From NCBI GenBank assembly GCA_016215445.1, contig JACRJL010000003.1, positions 280,924-344,923 on the forward strand: DNA of 64,000 nucleotides. The letters are read 5' to 3'. Source of the stretch: Candidatus Roizmanbacteria bacterium. GTDB taxonomy: Bacteria; Patescibacteriota; Microgenomatia; UBA1406; GWC2-37-13. Each line of letters begins with the position of its first letter. Position 1 is the stretch's first letter. Shown piece by piece: positions 49,696 through 58,542 of the stretch. The translations under genes were made by a program, and so were the position numbers. The notes under the pieces are model-generated. The model did no database searches. It saw only the letters and a program-made list of their open reading frames with translations, and had not been told where the DNA came from.

Positions 49696-50593
49696 TAATA
49701 TAGTCAATATTTGAATCTATCCAAGCAATCACATTTGTCGTATCACTGAATCTGTCTAAGCTTTTCAAAATTACGATTATAAATTGGTGACCATTCTTTT
49801 TATAAAAGGAAACGAGGTTTTCTCCAGCTTCTTCGGTATAGCCGGTTTTCAAACCTCCTAGACCGGAAATTTCTCCAAGAAGTTTATTGACGTTTGTCAA
49901 AGTGTGAAAATATTTGAAGTCGACGTCGGAAATAATAATTTCTTTAGTTGAGACGATTTTTGAAAGGTAGGGGTTTTTGAGAAGCTCTCGTGCGGCTAAA
50001 GCAAGATCGAACGGAGTTGAGTATTGGCCGTTTTCATCAAGACCGGCCGGGTTTTTAAAGCGGCTATCGTTCATATGGAGATTGAGAGCCTTTTCATTCA
50101 TCAAATCGACAAATTTATCATAACCGAAGTTATCGGCTAGGGCATAAGCGGCATCGTTACCTGAGTGAACGAGGGTCCCGTAAAGGAGATTTTCCACTGT
50201 TATTTTTTCTCCGACAACGAGCCCCATGATTTGACCATCTTCGATTACTTTCTTTACAGTAATTATTTGGTCTGGTTTATATATGTCTAATGCGACTAAA
50301 GCCGTGATGATTTTTGTTGTCGACGCTGGGAGAAATTGTGAATGCTCGTTTCTTTTTAGAATTGGGGTAAACGATGGCAGATCAACAATATAAACACCTT
50401 CAGCTGAAGTTTGGGGAAAATAAAAAGGACTTTTTAGATAAGGCACTGGGTTGATTTCGATATCCCTTCTGGTTTCTTTTTTTTCGAAAAGGGGACGGTT
50501 GTAAGCAAAAAGGTTGTAGTAGTAAGTATCGCCCGGGTAAAATAAAAATAATAGAGTATAAAAAGCTAAAAGAAGATACGACCGTAATTTCAT
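49685..50593 (-). CDS. D-alanyl-D-alanine carboxypeptidase (S11 family)
   Basis: 302 residues, with an N-terminal membrane segment. The three penicillin-binding motifs are present: SxxK in PASTTKIITAL, SxN in VHSGNDAAYAL and KTG in GLKTGYTEEAGENL. It trims the terminal D-Ala from peptidoglycan stem peptides outside the membrane. The C-terminal amphipathic domain of PBP5 is missing. It overlaps aspS by 4 bp on the same strand, so expression is linked. Confidence 0.93.
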   Translation of the reverse strand: MKLRSYLLLAFYTLLFLFYPGDTYYYNLFAYNRPLFEKKETRRDIEINPVPYLKSPFYFPQTSAEGVYIVDLPSFTPILKRNEHSQFLPASTTKIITALVALDIYKPDQIITVKKVIEDGQIMGLVVGEKITVENLLYGTLVHSGNDAAYALADNFGYDKFVDLMNEKALNLHMNDSRFKNPAGLDENGQYSTPFDLALAARELLKNPYLSKIVSTKEIIISDVDFKYFHTLTNVNKLLGEISGLGGLKTGYTEEAGENLVSFYKKNGHQFIIVILKSLDRFSDTTNVIAWIDSNIDYIIIR

Positions 50594-51957
50594 TTTATTT
50601 TTATTCCTAATTCTTTCAATTTCTCTTCCTTTACTGTTGATGGCGCCTTCATTACCGAAGTCCTTCCTCCTGATGTCATAGGATAAGCGATTACTTCTCG
50701 AAGAGAAGGTTCACCTGTGATGCAAGTTAAAAGTCTGTCAAGCCCTGGAGCAATGCCGCCATGCGGAGGAGCGCCATAACCTAAGGCCTCTATCATATGG
50801 CCGAATTTGAGATTAATTTCCTCCTCTTTTAGCCCCATAATTTCAAACACCGCTTTTAATCCTTTTGGAGTATGGTTTCTGATACTGCCGCCCCCGACTT
50901 CGTAACCATTGCAGACAAGATCGTATTGGCTAGTTAATATTTTTTCGACATTTTTTTTGTTCAGAAGGTCATTCATGAATTTCGGAAGAGGGGCGGAAAA
51001 AGGATTATGGGTAAAGGTCCAACCACCTGTGTCAGTTTTTTCAAAAAAAGGAAAGTCAACTACCCAGGCAAAAGCCTGAATGTTTTTCTTTTTTTCCTCC
51101 TCGGTCCGCAGGTCAAATTTGTCGGCGTCGAATTTCTTTATCGCTTCCTGATAAGTGAAAACAGGAAAAGGTTTTTTTTGAATCGGGATTTTCAGTTTTT
51201 CATAGACGTCAATCACCATGCTTTCTATTAGATTCATTACGTCTTCCCGCTCCACGAAACTCATTTCTAAATCAAGTTGGGTGAATTCGCCATAGGCCCG
51301 GTCTGCTCGTGGATCTTCATCGCGAAAGCAGCGGGCAATCTGAAAATATTTTTCTACTCCAGCAATCATCAGAAGCTGTTTATACTGTTGAGGTGATTGG
51401 GGGAGGGCGTAAAACTTGCCCGGCTGAAGTCGGGAAGGGACAATAAAGTCTCGAGCTCCTTCGGGTGTCGTTTCCGAAAGAATAGGTGTTTCGATTTCCA
51501 GAAATCCCTGTTTAAAAAGATATTGGCGAATCAGATCAATGAATTTACTTCTTAGGGCAAGGTTTTTGTACATCCGCGGCCGACGCAGATCAAGGTATCG
51601 GTATTTTAATCTGACTTCTTCGTCGATTTCCAAGCCGTCTGTGTTGACGGGAATAGGAAGAGGCTTGGTTTTATTCAAGATTTTGACTTCTTTGGCCTCG
51701 ATTTCAATCGTTCCTGTTTTTAATTTAGAGTTAATGAGCTTTTCCGGTCTTTTTTTGACGAGTCCCTTAATCCAGATTACATCTTCGGTCGATAGCTCTT
51801 TGAAGTCCTCGCCTCCGACTACCTGGACGGTTCCTGTGCGGTCTCTTAAATCTATAAAAACTATTTTTTTGTGGTCACGCTTTGAATCAATCCAACCAAA
51901 AAGCTCGACAGTTTCCCCAATTTTATCAGGAGTTTGTTCGACGGATAAGGTTTTCAT
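50590..51957 (-). CDS. aspS: Aspartyl-tRNA synthetase, without GAD insertion
   Basis: 455 residues against about 590 for usual bacterial AspRS. The anticodon-binding OB fold (VELFGWIDSKRDHKKIVFIDLRDRTGTVQVV), motif 2 (FRDEDPRADRAYGEFTQLDLE) and motif 3 (GIAPGLDRLLTCITG) are clear. After KFDADKFDLR, where bacterial enzymes carry the GAD domain of about 130 residues, the sequence goes directly to AFAWVVDFPFFE. It may charge tRNA-Asn too if no AsnRS exists, which cannot be seen here. A TATCAT box lies about 12 nt before ATG 51957. Confidence 0.95.
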   Translation of the reverse strand: MKTLSVEQTPDKIGETVELFGWIDSKRDHKKIVFIDLRDRTGTVQVVGGEDFKELSTEDVIWIKGLVKKRPEKLINSKLKTGTIEIEAKEVKILNKTKPLPIPVNTDGLEIDEEVRLKYRYLDLRRPRMYKNLALRSKFIDLIRQYLFKQGFLEIETPILSETTPEGARDFIVPSRLQPGKFYALPQSPQQYKQLLMIAGVEKYFQIARCFRDEDPRADRAYGEFTQLDLEMSFVEREDVMNLIESMVIDVYEKLKIPIQKKPFPVFTYQEAIKKFDADKFDLRTEEEKKKNIQAFAWVVDFPFFEKTDTGGWTFTHNPFSAPLPKFMNDLLNKKNVEKILTSQYDLVCNGYEVGGGSIRNHTPKGLKAVFEIMGLKEEEINLKFGHMIEALGYGAPPHGGIAPGLDRLLTCITGEPSLREVIAYPMTSGGRTSVMKAPSTVKEEKLKELGIKIK

Positions 51958-51991: not shown

Positions 51992-52020
51992 TTGACAAGG
52001 CTGACTGTTTTTTATATAAT
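51992..52020 (+). promoter_or_regulatory. Full-consensus promoter of the 810-residue NUDIX protein gene
   Basis: TTGACA (51992-51997), a 17-bp spacer and TATAAT (52015-52020), an exact sigma-70 consensus and the best match I found in the window. It is followed by a Shine-Dalgarno AAGGGG (52043-52048) at good distance from ATG 52055. The transcript start should be near 52027. Confidence 0.82.
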
Positions 52021-52054
52021 AAATAACTTATAGTTATATTTAAGGGGATATAAT

Positions 52055-54487
52055 ATGCCAGAAAAAGTATGGAAAGAAATTCCAATAGTAGATGCCTCGA
52101 GAGCCTTTCCTTTTGCTTTTAGGACTCCAGAGAGTATTCTTAAAAGTTTGGATAATTATTTACAGCATCCCAACGGTGGAATACCTATAATTGAAGTTTT
52201 CCTTGCACACAAGACTAAAGAAAGCAAATATAGTTCCAATCATCTTGCCCCTATTGGCGGTAAAATGCTTCCTGGAGAATCAGTTATTCAAACAGCCTAT
52301 AGGAGAATCCACGAGGAGTCAACCCTAGTTTGTTCTCCGTTAAAAGAAAAAGAAGATAGTAGATTTGTTGTTGATGGATCTTTTAACTATGATGTCACAG
52401 GTAAAGATGAAAAGAACCCATATGAAAAAAGAAGAGTTTCTTTTACAGTTGTTCCGGTTGTTAATCCCCAGATTATGACTTCGATCTATCCGATACAGGA
52501 AGACAGTAAAATTGACGGTTTTTATGGTTTATCAATAGAAGAATTAAATTTAGCTTTTAATAGTGGTCATCACACCGACAGCATTAGTAATGAAACCTTT
52601 CCTTTACAAGGTCACATAACAAAGTTGAAAGATGCGCCAGACATGACAGACTCGAAAAGTAATAGGATTGAAAGAAGAAAAATGCTGGGAGAAGTTACCA
52701 GAATTTTGAGACAACAGGAACAAAGAGCCAGGAGTATTTTATATGATAATTTGGTTCTTTTAGCTTTGGGTAAAATGGGTTTTGCTGAAGAAAATCTTCC
52801 AATACCTGGGGCAGAACTGACAAAAAACGTAACTCCTGATGAGCAATTTCAAAGAATGAAGCTAAAATCGGAAAAACTTGAAGAGTTAATGGTTATCTTA
52901 AAAAATTCCTTAGGTGAAAATTTTAAAGAATTTTTTACCGAGGCCTACAGCAAGGTTTTGGGTCAGGTCTATATGACTCATTTTCGCGAAAATGAGGAAA
53001 AGCATTACACTCTAGCTGCAAAAGAAAAAAAACGTTTATCAGAAAGGTTATTAGCTTTTTTAAAAATTAAGAAAGAAAAACCGATTTATGGTGTTTTATT
53101 TAACGAAGCTGAAGTAATTAGAGAGAGAATGGTAAATGGCAATTTCTCAACCGATGTGCTTCATTTTTTGCCTTTATTTATCAATATGAAAGACAGTTTT
53201 AAAGGGAGAACAACGAGACTTATTATTGAGTTAGCTCGTTTTATGAGGGATTTAACAAAAGAAGCGATAATAGGTGGACCTTACAAGAGTCTTGACGAGC
53301 TGAGAGAATTTTTTGTAGATGATAATATCTTATTAGACACAAAGCTTTTTTATAGTCAAAGGTTTAACAAACGGTTAGTAGAAATTATTTCTAAAGTCTT
53401 TAATACCGACAAAAAAGCAGTAGAGGATGCTTGGACATTAGCTTCTCGTTTTATTCCGGAACTCGCCGAAGAAACAAAAAATGCAGATCCTAAACTTTCA
53501 AAGCTCTATCAATTCCACGAACTTAGAAATGAAGTCACCAACCTTTCTTTAGGAAATACACTTTTACTAGCTTTAGGAGTTGACATAAAAGATAATGGAA
53601 CAGATTGGCCGATCGTTAAATTTGAAGCCTTGAGGCAGTTGACTTTTTTTTTGAAAATTTTGCTAGAAAAACCGATTTATGAAAATATTATAAAGAAAAA
53701 ACCTCACCCGATCGATTTTAGCATCAATAAATTTTTTGGACCGGTGGTCGATAATAGAGTCATTATTTTGAATCATAATGGCGAACAGCGAAAAATGCCC
53801 ATTACTTACAGAAGGGGTTTGGACGGAAATGAATTCATTGTCGACGAGAAACCCTTGAAATCTTTAAGATCAGCAGTTAGAAAAAGTCTTGAGGAAAATA
53901 TTGAAGGGATTGCTGATATTCAAAGCTGTGCCGTAGTATTGCCCAATGAACTTTATGACCATTTGAATTCGGAGCAAAGAATAGGGTTCATTAATCAACA
54001 AGCTGAATCTTTTTTGGAATTTCTTAACGTAAACTATCCTAGTTGGGACATTGTTAAAATGGAAGACAAAAACACATTTGATAATTTCGAAGCTGCGATA
54101 AAAAATGAACAGGTCTCGGAGACTGGAAAAAGAACCGGGTCAAAAGGTGACTTATTAATTAGAAGAAAAATAAAGTTGAGGATGACGGATAGAAAAACAA
54201 GGGAAAGCTATAACTATGAATTAGTCTTTTATCCTTTTGAGGAATTTGATGGTGAGAATTATTATGAGAAAGAAGAAGAAAAGAGCCAGTCGAAAGGTTT
54301 AATGGGTTGGCGGGAAAAAATGGAAGATGACCCAGCTTACTCCTTAAGAAGATTAATTTTCCCTTTGAGAGGGGCATTGGGTTTAAAGTCCATTTACGAA
54401 TTATTATTTCCACCCTCTCTCTATCCAGAACTAGTAAAGGAAATGAGAGAATCAAATATAAACGTATATAGACATATTTCCTCTTAA
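52055..54487 (+). CDS. Large NUDIX-containing protein, otherwise unknown
   Basis: 810 residues, cytoplasmic, no membrane helices. Residues about 15-195 look like a NUDIX domain: APIGGKMLPGESVIQTAYRRIHEES corresponds to the Nudix box, but the central Arg-Glu is Arg-Arg and the final Gly is Ser, so catalysis may be altered. Residues about 205-520 are mostly helical. The last 270 are mixed, with SKGDLLIRRKIKLRMTD, YNYELVFYPFEEF and GWREKMEDDPAYSLRRLIFP, which I cannot assign. The exact consensus promoter and Shine-Dalgarno suggest strong expression. It is the largest unexplained gene here. Confidence 0.8.
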   Translation: MPEKVWKEIPIVDASRAFPFAFRTPESILKSLDNYLQHPNGGIPIIEVFLAHKTKESKYSSNHLAPIGGKMLPGESVIQTAYRRIHEESTLVCSPLKEKEDSRFVVDGSFNYDVTGKDEKNPYEKRRVSFTVVPVVNPQIMTSIYPIQEDSKIDGFYGLSIEELNLAFNSGHHTDSISNETFPLQGHITKLKDAPDMTDSKSNRIERRKMLGEVTRILRQQEQRARSILYDNLVLLALGKMGFAEENLPIPGAELTKNVTPDEQFQRMKLKSEKLEELMVILKNSLGENFKEFFTEAYSKVLGQVYMTHFRENEEKHYTLAAKEKKRLSERLLAFLKIKKEKPIYGVLFNEAEVIRERMVNGNFSTDVLHFLPLFINMKDSFKGRTTRLIIELARFMRDLTKEAIIGGPYKSLDELREFFVDDNILLDTKLFYSQRFNKRLVEIISKVFNTDKKAVEDAWTLASRFIPELAEETKNADPKLSKLYQFHELRNEVTNLSLGNTLLLALGVDIKDNGTDWPIVKFEALRQLTFFLKILLEKPIYENIIKKKPHPIDFSINKFFGPVVDNRVIILNHNGEQRKMPITYRRGLDGNEFIVDEKPLKSLRSAVRKSLEENIEGIADIQSCAVVLPNELYDHLNSEQRIGFINQQAESFLEFLNVNYPSWDIVKMEDKNTFDNFEAAIKNEQVSETGKRTGSKGDLLIRRKIKLRMTDRKTRESYNYELVFYPFEEFDGENYYEKEEEKSQSKGLMGWREKMEDDPAYSLRRLIFPLRGALGLKSIYELLFPPSLYPELVKEMRESNINVYRHISS

Positions 54488-54516
54488 TTTCTTACAGATT
54501 GTGGGATTATGTTCTG

Positions 54517-54522
54517 TATAAT
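54517..54522 (+). promoter_or_regulatory. -10 box (TATAAT) of the attenuator transcript
   Basis: TATAAT 7 nt before the leader-peptide ATG at 54530, with a weak TTACAG-like -35 further upstream. The spacing matches the leaderless pattern of other genes in the window. Confidence 0.55.
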
Positions 54523-54529
54523 CAATAAA

Positions 54530-54592
54530 ATGAAAATCAACAATATTTATTCGAGGATTATTTTCCTTTTTACCGCATATAGGCGGAGGTAA
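54530..54592 (+). CDS. Candidate 20-residue leader peptide
   Basis: ATG 54530 to TAA 54592. The peptide has a hydrophobic middle (IIFLF, residues 10-14) and ends Arg-Arg-Arg, encoded AGG CGG AGG. Its last codons form one arm of an RNA structure that competes with the terminator at 54615-54637. It starts 7 nt after a TATAAT box. It looks like the leader peptide of a transcription attenuator; whether it is translated is untested. Confidence 0.5.
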   Translation: MKINNIYSRIIFLFTAYRRR

Positions 54593-54637
54593 TTATAAAT
54601 TGTAAATTTATTACCCCGCTGAAAGGCGGGTTTTTTT
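54573..54637 (+). terminator. Attenuator: alternative hairpins ending in a terminator
   Basis: Four arms can pair in competition. Arm 1 CCGC (54573-54576) pairs with arm 2 start GCGG (54583-54586). Arm 2 GCGGAGGTAAT (54583-54593) pairs with arm 3 ATTACCCCGC (54610-54619), ten pairs with one bulge. Arm 3 CCCGC (54615-54619) pairs with arm 4 GCGGG (54626-54630) around a GAAA loop, followed by seven T (54631-54637). The 1-2-3-4 layout is that of a classic attenuator. The terminator may also end the upstream 810-residue gene. Confidence 0.62.
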
Positions 54638-54639
54638 AT

Positions 54640-54987
54640 ATGGTAGAAACAGGCAATTTTGGCAGTTGGCGAGAGAGAAAAAGAGCAGAATTGGTAACAA
54701 CAAAATTTATAGATTTGAGAAGCAGCATTTTGACAGATCCAAGAGACATATTCGTTGACAAAGAATCGGCGATTCAGATAAAAAGACAGATAGCGAACAA
54801 GGAAATTAAATGGATTGTTTATTATCATGGAGTTGTATTACCGGGAGATAACATTAACGATGACGGAGGAAAGGGTAAAAGTGAGAATTGTGTTGATGGA
54901 AGTTATACGAATTATTTTGTATTTAAAGCAAAAGATTTAGTCGATTGGTATGTTCTTTCACCGAATTATCAATATTTTTCCCCTTAA
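54640..54987 (+). CDS. Small protein of unknown function behind an attenuator
   Basis: 115 residues, starting two bases after the T run of the terminator. It is soluble, charged at the N-terminus (GSWRERKRAELVTTKFIDLRSS) and has IKWIVYYHGVVLPGD, YTNYFVFKAKDLVDWYVL towards the end. No family is recognised. There is no ribosome binding site apart from the GGCGGG within the terminator hairpin. Its 3' end overlaps the convergent recJ gene by 30 bp. Expression is presumably controlled by the upstream leader. Confidence 0.6.
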   Translation: MVETGNFGSWRERKRAELVTTKFIDLRSSILTDPRDIFVDKESAIQIKRQIANKEIKWIVYYHGVVLPGDNINDDGGKGKSENCVDGSYTNYFVFKAKDLVDWYVLSPNYQYFSP

Positions 54988-56616
54988 CTTTTCTCTTCCT
55001 CCCCATCTGTCAATTTCCAGAGTATAAACAATTTCGATTTTTTGTCCGCGGGAAAGTTCTTTTAATTTCTCGGCCTGGTTAAAGCCGATCAGTTCGAAGT
55101 TTTCAATATATACTTTCAGATGGGTGTTGGTTTTTCCAAATAGTTGTGCATTAGCTGCTTCGGTTTCACTGTAAAAAGTCGGTCGAGGATTGCCCATTCC
55201 GAAAGGTTCAAGAGATTCAAGACTTTTAACTATTTCTAAATTAATTTTTGGTACGGGTATTTTTATATCAACCAAAATAATTCTTTCCAAGTCCTTATCC
55301 TTTATTAATTTATTTTCCTGTTTTTCTATCTCCTTCTTAAACCCGTCTAGTTTTTTCGCTTCAATAGTGAAACCGGCTGCCTGGGCATGCCCGCCTACGT
55401 CAACTAAATATTTTTTTAAAGACCGCAGGAAGTTAGTAATATGAAAACTGGGAATTGATCTAGCTGAAGCTTTGTAAAACCCATCGTTTTTAGTCATGAT
55501 GATTGTCGGCCGGTAATATTTTTCCGCAAGTTTTGAAGCAATCAATCCTATAATTCCCTCATTCCAGTGATCTGATTTAAGAATGATGATTTTATTTATT
55601 TTTTTATTTTTGGAAAGTTCTTTTTCTGCCTCCTTTAGAGACGTTTCCACCAATTCTTGTCTTCGGACATTTGTACTGCCGATTTTTTGGGCTAGGTCGT
55701 ATGCTCGTTTTTCATCAACTGTGCAGAGTAATCTTAAAGCATCGATTGCATGTGATAATCGACCGATGGCGTTTATACGAGGAGCTATCATAAAGCCGAC
55801 TTCATAAGGTGTGATTTCTTTATTCTCAATCCCTGCTTGTTTGAGAATGTGTTTAATACCGAAGCGATTTACTTTGGGAAAAACAGAAAGACCATACTTA
55901 ACAACGCTTCTTGATGGTCCAACTAATGGAACAAGGTCAGCGATGGTGCCGATTGAGGCGAGAGCCAGGTAATCAAAGGAAAAATTATGAGTTAAAAGTG
56001 AAGAATGAAGAGTTTGGGATTTAAAGTGGGCAAAAACTTCCTTGGAAAAAAAATAGGCGACGCCGCTACCGGAAAGAGCTGAAATGTGGAAAATCGCATC
56101 TGCTTTAGGAATTTTTTCTGCTTTTAAATGGTGGTCTGTAACAATAACTTTAATTCTTTTATCTTTGGCGTATTTGATTTCTTTTGTTTTGGTAATTCCG
56201 TGGTCGACGCTTATTATTAAAACCGGATTATACTGTTTAATAACATTATCTATTCCTGTTATTGAAAATCCATAACCTTCTTTCTTTCTGTCCGGAACAT
56301 AAGGCATAACTTTAAAACCTAATAGGTGAAGCGTCTCCCAAAGAATGGCTCCTCCTGTGATTCCGTCTGCATCATAATCTGTATAGACTACAATCATCTG
56401 ATTTTGTTCTTTTATTTCATTGAGAAGTTTGATTACTTTATCAAATTGTTTTTTATATTTTAAATCAAAGTCCAAAAGAGAAATAGATGAAGGAAGAGGT
56501 GGATTGACAAACTCCTTAATATCTTTGATTTGACGATTCTTAAGAATAAGATTAAGAACTTGTTGAGGAGTAATTTTATCTTCAGATTTAATTTCGTGTT
56601 TGAAATCAATTTTCAT
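54958..56616 (-). CDS. recJ: Single-stranded-DNA-specific exonuclease RecJ
   Basis: 552 residues. The DHH phosphoesterase motifs are complete: VVYTDYDADGITGG, ISVDHGIT, VIVTDHHLKAE, and the DHHA1 motif VDVGGHAQAAGFTI. It degrades single-stranded DNA 5' to 3' in recombination and repair. It follows rmuC by 5 bp in a minus-strand operon. Confidence 0.96.
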   Translation of the reverse strand: MKIDFKHEIKSEDKITPQQVLNLILKNRQIKDIKEFVNPPLPSSISLLDFDLKYKKQFDKVIKLLNEIKEQNQMIVVYTDYDADGITGGAILWETLHLLGFKVMPYVPDRKKEGYGFSITGIDNVIKQYNPVLIISVDHGITKTKEIKYAKDKRIKVIVTDHHLKAEKIPKADAIFHISALSGSGVAYFFSKEVFAHFKSQTLHSSLLTHNFSFDYLALASIGTIADLVPLVGPSRSVVKYGLSVFPKVNRFGIKHILKQAGIENKEITPYEVGFMIAPRINAIGRLSHAIDALRLLCTVDEKRAYDLAQKIGSTNVRRQELVETSLKEAEKELSKNKKINKIIILKSDHWNEGIIGLIASKLAEKYYRPTIIMTKNDGFYKASARSIPSFHITNFLRSLKKYLVDVGGHAQAAGFTIEAKKLDGFKKEIEKQENKLIKDKDLERIILVDIKIPVPKINLEIVKSLESLEPFGMGNPRPTFYSETEAANAQLFGKTNTHLKVYIENFELIGFNQAEKLKELSRGQKIEIVYTLEIDRWGGREKLRGKILIIR

Positions 56617-56621
56617 TGGTT

Positions 56622-57584
56622 TTATTCTATCATTTTCGTTTCTTTATCTGAAAGTAAGTTTGTGGAAGTTAATTTTTGCCCAAGTGACTGAAAATTTTTG
56701 TTTACTTGGGAAGATTGGTTATAGGCATTTGTGATATGTTTATTCAAAACAAGAAGATTTTCTTCGGTTCTTTGGTAATCTTTTTTAATGGCGCTTAGAA
56801 GTATCATCACTTGTTTGGCTTTTTCTTCAATCTTCTGCCCTTCAAAAGATATTAAGATCGCTTTTATATAGGCATAAAAACTCATCGGAGATACAGGGAG
56901 TACCATTTTTGCTCCAGCGAAGTCGAAAAGCTCGTCGTCGTTGATTATTTCATAGTAGACGTTTTCTGATGGAATATACATCAGAGCATAGTCGACTGTT
57001 TTTTCATCAGGAACAATGTATTTTTTTGAAATGTCGATGATATGTTTTTTTACATCGGAAATGAATGACTTTTTAAATTCCTGTTTTTCTTTTAAGTCGG
57101 TTGTCTTTGTAAACTTTCGGAAATTTTCCAGAGGAAATTTAGAGTCAATAGGAATCAATCCTTGGGAAGTGACTATAACTGCGTCGACTTTTTCTCCTGA
57201 TTTGAAACTGTGTTGGAGTCTATATGAATCTTTGGGAAAGTATTGTTTTAATAGATCTTTTAAAATCTGCTCACCTATGTTGCCGCGGATTTTTGGTGAG
57301 GAGAGAAATTCCTGCAGTTCTTTCATGCTTCTTCCGATTTCTGAAAATTCGCCAATATTTTTTTGCACTTGGGCGATGACGTAGGCAGCTTTGTCGAGTC
57401 TACTATTAAAAGTATTCATTTGGTCAGACAATTTCCTATCTGTCTGGGCATTTGAAGATTTAAGCCATTGCATAAGTTCTTCGGAAATTTTTGTTTTTTC
57501 TTCGATTCTATTGAACCACAGACGGATAACAATGAGCAAAACTGCAACGCTAACGATAATAGTAATAATCAAAAGAAGATTCAC
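56622..57584 (-). CDS. rmuC: DNA recombination protein RmuC
   Basis: 320 residues, near the short end for RmuC. An N-terminal membrane helix (about 3-24) and coiled coil are followed by the nuclease-like core (RGNIGEQILKDLLKQYFPKDSYRLQHSF, VDAVIVTSQGLIPIDSKFPLENF, YALMYIPSENVYYEI, VLPVSPMSFYAYIKAI). RmuC limits inversions at short repeats; its biochemical activity is not well defined. It is placed between the DHH-like gene and recJ. Confidence 0.94.
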   Translation of the reverse strand: MNLLLIITIIVSVAVLLIVIRLWFNRIEEKTKISEELMQWLKSSNAQTDRKLSDQMNTFNSRLDKAAYVIAQVQKNIGEFSEIGRSMKELQEFLSSPKIRGNIGEQILKDLLKQYFPKDSYRLQHSFKSGEKVDAVIVTSQGLIPIDSKFPLENFRKFTKTTDLKEKQEFKKSFISDVKKHIIDISKKYIVPDEKTVDYALMYIPSENVYYEIINDDELFDFAGAKMVLPVSPMSFYAYIKAILISFEGQKIEEKAKQVMILLSAIKKDYQRTEENLLVLNKHITNAYNQSSQVNKNFQSLGQKLTSTNLLSDKETKMIE

Positions 57585-57591
57585 AAATCAA

Positions 57592-58542
57592 TTATATCAA
57601 ACCGCCGCCTTTGAAGATTTTAGGCTTTAACCAATCAGAAGGGTTTTTTTCCTCAAACTGTTGCTGACCGGCCTGTTTTTCCTGTTCTACCTTTTCGATT
57701 GGGGTAACAGGTTGAGTCTCAACTGACGGTCCGAAATTAGAATTTGGTTTAACTATTTGGGGAGTTGGCGGAATGAATCTTGGCGCCGGAGCGGAAACAG
57801 GTTTTTTAAAAGTTTTTTTAATGGCACCCATACGAAGTAGAGTAGCAATATTTTCAAAAGTGTCAGCATTAGTTGAATAGGAAGTAAAGTTATTTGTAGC
57901 AGAGGCGACTCCACTATAAAGGTTAGTGGCGATATCTCGATCAACTTCGACTTTTATATTCTGTAAAACAGTTAAAATCAACTCGGAAATAGAAGAAATG
58001 GTCTTATTGACAAAGTTAACTGTACCAAAATAGGCATTTGTTAGATGACGGTCTATGTTGATAATGTCGTGCCCTGTAAACTGGCTTTGATTATCATTAT
58101 AGATCTGTCCCAAGCTGTTTAGGGTCGGGGAGTCTATTACTATAATGAAGTCAACCACGCCCCCTGTATAAGAAAAAGAAACTTGGTTTTGGTTAAGTTT
58201 CGAAAATCCAGCTCGAGGGCTGACGATTAAATTGAAAAACTCACCCTGGATATTGTAATCGACTTTATCTATGGCTCCGTCTGTATAGGGAAAAGAGATC
58301 ATTAAAGAATCTCCTCCGGCTCCAATCCCGGTTTGAAACTTATCAGCTGCGGTTAGATCGGAGGTTGGTTTTTGAGAACAGGCTAAGGAAACGTTTTTCC
58401 CGCTTTTGGTCAAACCAAGATAAAGAGAAGTGGCGGCAGCAATCGCGTCAATTGTTGGATTGGGAGGGATAATTATAACGCCTGATTTGCCTTTGTTGAT
58501 AACCTCAAAGATTCGACTTAAAGTATTCTGTTGGTTATTCAT
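57592..58542 (-). CDS. Degenerate DHH-family protein with long C-terminal tail
   Basis: 316 residues. The pattern follows NrnA-type DHH phosphoesterases, but catalytic positions have changed: the HxxPDxD motif reads PPNPTIDAIAAA (first Asp replaced by Thr), VIDSPTLNSLG keeps an Asp, and the DHH motif reads NIDRHLTNAYFG. A low-complexity Pro/Gln tail of about 80 residues follows. It sits directly after infB, where many bacteria have rbfA-nrnA, so it is probably the local NrnA relative turned non-catalytic or altered in substrate. Confidence 0.75.
   Translation of the reverse strand: MNNQQNTLSRIFEVINKGKSGVIIIPPNPTIDAIAAATSLYLGLTKSGKNVSLACSQKPTSDLTAADKFQTGIGAGGDSLMISFPYTDGAIDKVDYNIQGEFFNLIVSPRAGFSKLNQNQVSFSYTGGVVDFIIVIDSPTLNSLGQIYNDNQSQFTGHDIINIDRHLTNAYFGTVNFVNKTISSISELILTVLQNIKVEVDRDIATNLYSGVASATNNFTSYSTNADTFENIATLLRMGAIKKTFKKPVSAPAPRFIPPTPQIVKPNSNFGPSVETQPVTPIEKVEQEKQAGQQQFEEKNPSDWLKPKIFKGGGLI

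Follow-up and report, generated by a model that had tools for sequence, protein, structure and literature searches.

Results

The locus between aspS and recJ

The window is a stretch of 64,000 nucleotides from a Candidatus Roizmanbacteria (Microgenomates, CPR) genome of 0.94 Mb (G000; assembly GCA_016215445.1, contig JACRJL010000003.1, here C3:280924-344923). It contains an 810-aa gene, a leader element and a 115-aa open reading frame, in this order, flanked by aspS (50590-51957) on one side and recJ (54958-56616) on the other, both on the minus strand. The 810-aa gene (52055-54487) matches NUDIX weakly in Pfam (E 0.00049) ahead of a long unclassified C-terminal part, and 29 bases separate its stop codon from the -10 box of the leader. 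An earlier note on this DNA had described here a TATAAT box, a 20-codon frame, four RNA arms and a run of seven T, and had read them as a candidate leader-peptide attenuator; direct reading of the sequence finds each of them in its place, as listed below.

54488-54496, plus strand: TTTCTTACA box, with CTTACA 20 nt 5' of the -10 element; common to the four closest aspS-recJ leaders
54517-54522, plus strand: -10 element TATAAT, read from the sequence, 7 nt before the leader ATG at 54530
54530-54592, plus strand: predicted leader peptide ORF MKINNIYSRIIFLFTAYRRR, 20 codons, stop codon TAA at 54590-54592
54557-54571, plus strand: control codons ATT ATT TTC CTT TTT (I I F L F), codons 10-14, at slots -9 to -5 before arm 2
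54573-54576, plus strand: arm 1 (CCGC), read from the sequence
54582-54593, plus strand: arm 2 GGCGGAGGTAAT, last Arg codons, stop codon and one base beyond; pairs with arm 3
54610-54619, plus strand: arm 3 ATTACCCCGC, common to antiterminator 2-3 and terminator 3-4
54625-54630, plus strand: arm 4 GGCGGG, read from the sequence
54615-54637, plus strand: intrinsic terminator from a terminator scan, hairpin 3-4 and seven T (54631-54637)
54640-54987, plus strand: orphan 115-aa gene, start ATG at 54640, putative regulated gene

A short predicted ORF is therefore found between a promoter element and a terminator just before a gene. Helix 2-3 has ten pairs and one bulged A, and the final Arg codons and the stop codon lie inside arm 2 (54582 onward), both as the earlier reading had it. 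The element as a whole folds with a z-score of -3.28, none of 200 shuffles being as stable. By itself the leader hairpin is unremarkable, since the region 52000-58000 has two terminator-like sites, this one included, and its shuffles give 3.7.

Close relatives of the window leader

Two leaders can be aligned with that of the window from the ATG through the T run. One is a second copy in the same genome, found by a DNA search of that genome (C3:65342-65421, 78% identity over 80 bases; hereafter the paralogue), and the other, which carries a near-identical core in the same aspS-recJ interval, comes from genome G004 and was found by a pattern search of 144 genomes. The three peptides are MKINNIYSRIIFLFTAYRRR in the window, MKLNPNHFTFRILITAYRRR in G004 and MSLNKPFFLLINLIAA in the paralogue, and arms 2 and 3 covary among them. 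The G004 peptide has the same length as that of the window and the same ending TAYRRR before the stop, while G003, G005 and G012 carry shorter or variant forms. A terminator hairpin kept in relatives that had lost the small frame and arm 2 had been named as what would overturn the attenuator reading; in fact, both persist in the syntenic G004, and the scaffold persists in the paralogue. Four matches with three mismatches in the pattern search (L006, L007, L008 and L011, from G140, G128, G025 and G083) were taken as chance, the first three showing no terminator or leader in their printed sequence. The exact core motif gave no match in viral contigs and two records in genome contigs, one of them the G004 contig; an exact match in a Zixiibacteriota sequence was judged to be chance, as the raw, untranslated sequence looked coding and had no leader.

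A family of leaders on one scaffold

A covariance model built from the three leaders (R1) matched 18 of the 20 genomes of the genus at E<=1 and 50 of the 72 of the family at E<=0.1, and most of the loci found with it read as classical amino-acid leaders. A second model (R2), built from 50 of these leaders, matched 69/72 family genomes at E<=0.01, and at E<=0.001 it matched 56/233 genomes of the class and 21/379 of the phylum; all these E-values rest on Infernal's shortened calibration, and the match between codons and enzymes described below is the independent check. R2, whose training set included the window leader, scores the window site at E 1.1e-17, and no other position in this stretch does better than E 0.37. 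From 141 R2 matches in two sets (60 + 81), 130 unique sequences were kept.

Across the family, a scaffold of about 110 nt precedes hisS, hisG-hisD, hutH, thrS, thrC, leuA, cysK, ilvB, ilvE, DAHP synthase, pheA and pheS, the downstream enzymes being identified by NCBIfam/Pfam. A leader with HHH stands before hisS in the genome of the window itself (L110). HH is found ahead of hisG-hisD (L126) and also ahead of an aromatic amino acid lyase (L141) that we read as histidine ammonia-lyase. TTT precedes thrS (L059, with L123, L128 and L133 assigned through similarity clustering), LLL precedes leuA (L022, with L050 assigned through clustering), C-T-C precedes a gene of the cysteine-synthase/cystathionine-synthase family (L028), and runs of I, L and V precede ilvE and ilvB (L024, L087). 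As for the aromatic amino acids, FYFYF stands before DAHP synthase (L016), and the genes for prephenate dehydratase (L108) and PheS (L105) likewise have aromatic residues in the leader ahead of them. Two further leaders come from CPR genomes that are more distant, a T-rich one preceding a thrS-like ORF (L161) and an aromatic one preceding a DAHP-synthase-like ORF (L159), both genes identified by eye only. Outside the control slots, the leader peptides vary freely. An integron-like or mobile repeat was also considered, because copies recur, and was discarded, since what recurs is a leader with its own promoter and with codons that fit the gene, not a repeat of cargo.

Some leaders of the family occur in series or before proteins of less clear function. 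The genome of the window contains two aromatic leaders in series (C2:28949-29489; L109:350-890), the first (FYFYF) ahead of a 93-aa orphan and the second (YYY) ahead of a 308-aa protein that weakly matches a methyltransferase. Tandem Cys/Thr pairs (L040, L042, L137, L147; for example ICTCTTTL then VCTTTTRL) precede one family of orphan proteins of about 250 aa, which suggests control by two signals. Tyr-rich tandem leaders (L134, L136) stand before a beta-eliminating lyase (Pfam PF01212), possibly a tyrosine phenol-lyase or tryptophanase, and ILV/F-type leaders such as LSIIFVLFILITA (L084, L119, L120, L145, L104, L140) precede large proteins (about 500 aa), most of which have no match in Pfam.

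Control codons match the enzyme downstream

The control slots, -9 to -5 before arm 2, were defined from leaders standing before known enzymes. In the 36 leaders whose enzyme class could be assigned independently of the leader, residues cognate to the enzyme fill 130 of 180 slot positions, as compared to a mean of 38.7 (sd 9.3, maximum 80) in 20000 label permutations, and two or more adjacent cognates occur in 34/36 leaders (permuted mean 9.3, maximum 21), although these leaders are not independent, because there are orthologues and two tandem pairs among them. The permutations excluded leaders standing ahead of orphans, class I/II aminotransferases, pyruvate kinase, transaldolase, DeoC-type aldolase, epimerase and other genes, since no amino-acid class is known for these or one could have been guessed only from the leader; those of transaldolase and DeoC had counted as aromatic when the slots were defined. 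Relatives on the same scaffold thus carry control codons cognate to the governed pathway; in the window, the target with which the codons would have to agree is an orphan.

Pairing of the arms and the position of the ribosome

In 56 distinct family sequences, the antiterminator 2-3 has 86.9% of its cells paired and changes on both sides in 13/13 pairs, with a covariation score of 0.409 against 0.102 (0/500 shuffles equal; slid versions all below 0.08), in an alignment that was fitted to this helix and so favours it in the test. The terminator 3-4 has 83.8% of cells paired and double changes in 3/6 pairs. For the four pairs of helix 1-2, 77.0% of cells are paired, no more than in shuffles, and in the window this helix comprises just CCGC/GCGG and never formed in the fold. 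From the four-arm scheme of the earlier note, the pairings 2-3 and 3-4 consequently stand, and the weak 1-2 finds no support in covariation.

When the window leader was folded with a ribosome mask from -14 to +15 around the P site, the probability of helix 2-3 remained at or above 0.99 through P-site codon 13, and that of helix 3-4 was 1.00 from codon 14, so the predicted switch falls at the end of I-I-F-L-F. The predicted logic of read-through after an early stall and termination with a ribosome at the stop is reproduced by this fold, with one addition: without any ribosome the window leader is also predicted to read through, which implies that no translation would also mean 'on'. The same test covered 129 of the 130 leaders (one was lost). 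A mask at the last codon gave the terminator in 124/129, and without ribosome the terminator was absent in 52 and present in 77. A clean equilibrium switch, with no terminator when the ribosome is missing and a terminator when it is at the stop, was seen in 48/129, the paralogue and G003 leaders not among them; in 24 of these 48 the switch falls at slot -5, the most frequent position and the one where cognate residues end in family leaders. Both fold and covariation therefore describe an antiterminator and a terminator that are mutually exclusive.

Promoters and the start of the leader ORF

The TATAAT of the window has no TTGACA-like -35 and does not appear in the list of the promoter scan. 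Over the family, a hexamer matching the -10 consensus in at least five of six positions is located 6-14 nt before the ATG in 90/130 leaders (shuffles 22.2, maximum 30), and an SD-like sequence precedes the leader ORF in 6/130; with the -10 so close to the ATG, most leader ORFs look leaderless, and that of the window appears to be so too. Second leaders of tandem pairs, in those that were read, directly follow the first terminator and have no such promoter. CTTACA occurs within 45 nt upstream in five of the 130 unique leaders, those of the window, G004, G003, G005 and, displaced, the paralogue, and in none of the other 125. In four aspS-recJ leaders the TTTCTTACA box precedes the -10 by a nearly fixed number of bases, and in the paralogue it lies between the -10 and the ATG (the loci concerned besides the window are L014, L015, L017 and L031); it could be a regulator site or an unusual -35.

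A stable leader before changing genes

The product of the 115-aa gene has no Pfam or PADLOC match and a single homologue besides itself (31% identity, 96 genomes), the same one being recovered among 281 genomes of the class, so the gene is indeed of no recognised family. This sole relative (L004) shows by eye no leader in front. A structure model of the protein built from two sequences (pLDDT 41.7) was unusable, and no fold search was based on it.

A full aspS is present in 17 of the 20 genus genomes, and in ten of the 17 (the window and 9/16 others; R2, E<=0.01) a leader lies upstream of it, pointing away. This leader is followed by different genes, whose products measure 115 aa, 82+57 aa, 408 aa, at least 342 aa, at least 500 aa (the NUDIX-like one), 155 aa, 198 aa and 82 aa, among others. 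An all-against-all comparison links just the G005 gene with the 810-aa gene of the window, G004 with G002, and G004 with G001. Since these genes are mostly unrelated, the attenuator appears to be more stable than the genes it governs. The 810-aa NUDIX-like protein has matches in 13/72 genomes, its own included, one of which lies directly behind the attenuator in G005; G019 has a NUDIX gene at the aspS site but no R2 match there at E<=1. A second peptide type (e.g. MKVNTYQLITHLNLFIEVRTRCG) is found at the site in G015, G006 and G002; in G013 a frame of this type stops after 11 codons, and at the G008 site no leader ORF was found. A RelA/SpoT-like reading of the 408-aa gene of G003 was a guess and was dropped, as Pfam gave nothing.

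Discussion

The element of the window is probably a ribosome-mediated transcription attenuator, a reading that has passed the test on which it was to fail and has gained the backing of a whole family of leaders. From the arms, the family covariation, the slot rule and the codon-enzyme match of the relatives, all obtained by computation, we infer the following course. Transcription would start a few bases before the leader ATG or at it, and a ribosome would load on the leaderless 5' end and trail the RNA polymerase. Once past codons 10-14 and at the stop, the ribosome would cover arm 2, so that the 3-4 hairpin would form and transcription would terminate at 54631-54637. If it had to wait with one of codons 10-14 in its A site for want of charged tRNA, arm 2 would be free to pair with arm 3, the terminator would be broken and the 115-aa gene would be transcribed. 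Weighing against this reading are the small share of leaders with a clean switch (48/129), the lack of support for helix 1-2, the early stop in G013, the missing leader frame in G008 and the absent R2 match beside the NUDIX gene of G019.

The most likely signal would be a shortage of leucine or branched-chain amino acids, which we hold to be somewhat better than an even guess, because a leucine is constant at slot -6. The residues at slots -9 to -5 are I I F L F in the window, F R I L I in G004, L I N L I in the paralogue, I M K L Y in G003 and R I S L F in G005, with Leu at -6 in 5/5 leaders of this group; in the G012 leader MNVDIAKFYFKILGLTNPYGQG the Leu was placed at -6 by eye. The same residue occupies this slot in 6/8 ilvB/ilvE leaders, and in 5/5 leuA leaders, but also in 28/84 leaders before other genes. 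A single Leu among mixed Ile and Phe codons is, however, a weaker run than the HHH or TTTT seen elsewhere, and the signal cannot be matched to its target because the downstream gene is an orphan.

The alternative that survives best, though we consider it unlikely, is that the same switch senses translation in general (an antibiotic, few ribosomes, cold) and not a particular amino acid, so that transcription would go through whenever the ribosome is missing or is stopped ahead of codon 14. The fold that reads through without ribosome, or with one anywhere through P-site codon 13, is what such a sensor would give, as are the mixed control codons and the orphan target; yet sister leaders on the scaffold carry amino-acid-specific runs that match their gene, the Leu of slot -6 is constant, and the no-ribosome fold forms the terminator in 77/129 leaders. 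Considerably less probable is a product that acts in trans, the terminated transcript or the peptide itself working as a small RNA or micropeptide, with regulation of the next gene being secondary. That the leader persists at the aspS-recJ site while the genes behind it change, and that the window and G004 peptides end alike, would fit this idea, whereas the free variation of the peptides outside the control slots and the position of the scaffold before biosynthetic genes in relatives are those of cis-regulators. Lastly, a mere terminator of the upstream 810-aa gene, the small frame being a by-product of GC-rich arms, is suggested by the nearby stop codon and by how common terminators are, but is rejected as hardly credible, since in G003, G005 and G012 the leader and aspS point away from each other and are not separated by any co-directional gene, and since conservation extends to the frame, to arm 2 and to the control slot, and helix 2-3 covaries.

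If the attenuator reading holds, this tiny bacterium probably turns on an orphan gene when an amino acid runs short. We advance more tentatively, as a possibility with the odds somewhat against it, that the aspS-recJ site is a regulatory socket, in which a fixed, leaderless leucine/branched-chain attenuator, built on a scaffold codon-swapped for at least six specificities, would stay in place while the governed genes are exchanged. In such a case, amino-acid hunger would switch on fast-turnover orphan genes rather than biosynthesis, perhaps for scavenging from a host cell or interacting with it. Gene regulation in CPR/Patescibacteria is hardly known, and five codon slots on one scaffold would make the controlling amino acid readable from the sequence alone, also for many CPR orphan genes, so that the scaffold would predict physiology for mostly uncultured organisms.

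Comparison with known systems

The classical amino-acid leader-peptide attenuators are those of the his, leu, thr, phe, ilv and trp genes of Proteobacteria. The CPR leaders share with them a short ORF with control codons, an antiterminator and a terminator with one common arm, a stop codon in arm 2, and biosynthetic and tRNA-synthetase targets, and differ from them in the single scaffold of about 110 nt that serves all specificities, in the apparently leaderless leader ORF and, in the window, in the orphan target. None of the Rfam leader families (Phe_leader RF01859, Trp_leader RF00513 and others) reached its gathering score in the window, and L013 and L014 had no match at E<=1; the best scores of relatives were 41.7 of 55 bits for Phe_leader and 36.9 of 41 bits for Trp_leader.

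T-boxes likewise sense tRNA charging and can control a terminator. No T-box (RF00230) was found in the window at gathering score, and in none of 72 family genomes did one pass the cut-off. T-box-like RNAs scoring below the threshold are nevertheless present in 36/72 of these genomes, including that of the window (G000:C3:437657-437871; best E 1.1e-19, in G044), so CPR bacteria may have diverged T-boxes alongside their leader peptides. As for antibiotic-responsive attenuators of the erm or ABC-F type, which would have a resistance or ribosome-protection gene downstream, the gene found here is the 115-aa orphan, with no Pfam match.

A leucine-rich attenuator peptide has reportedly been found in Staphylococcus aureus (PMC5794164). 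Leader-peptide attenuators are described in Actinobacteria and Firmicutes, also before tRNA synthetase genes (PMC1262725, PMC2965389), and the second of these sources, in the passage concerned, presents the Firmicutes hisS/hisZ case and states that none was known at that date outside Proteobacteria and Actinobacteria; our leaders share with them the principle, again outside Proteobacteria, and differ in phylum. In Sinorhizobium meliloti, the relevant part of PMC7298713 places the 5' end of trpL, leaderless, at the leader ATG, as we infer here, and reports trans roles for rnTrpL and peTrpL; the likeness concerns this start, and trpL differs in being a tryptophan leader with trans roles. The supposition that peptide attenuators were undescribed in CPR agrees with a search of open-licence literature, which found no description for CPR/Patescibacteria: in the passages retrieved, the leaders meant in PMC7143001 are bacteriocin leaders, and PMC11665869 treats riboswitches as tools. 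In any case, the principle is that of textbook attenuation, and what is new, as far as we have seen, is that it occurs in CPR and has spread there, together with the use of codon swapping to give one scaffold new specificities, leader ORFs on this scaffold that appear leaderless, and what looks like a fixed attenuator over changing orphan genes.
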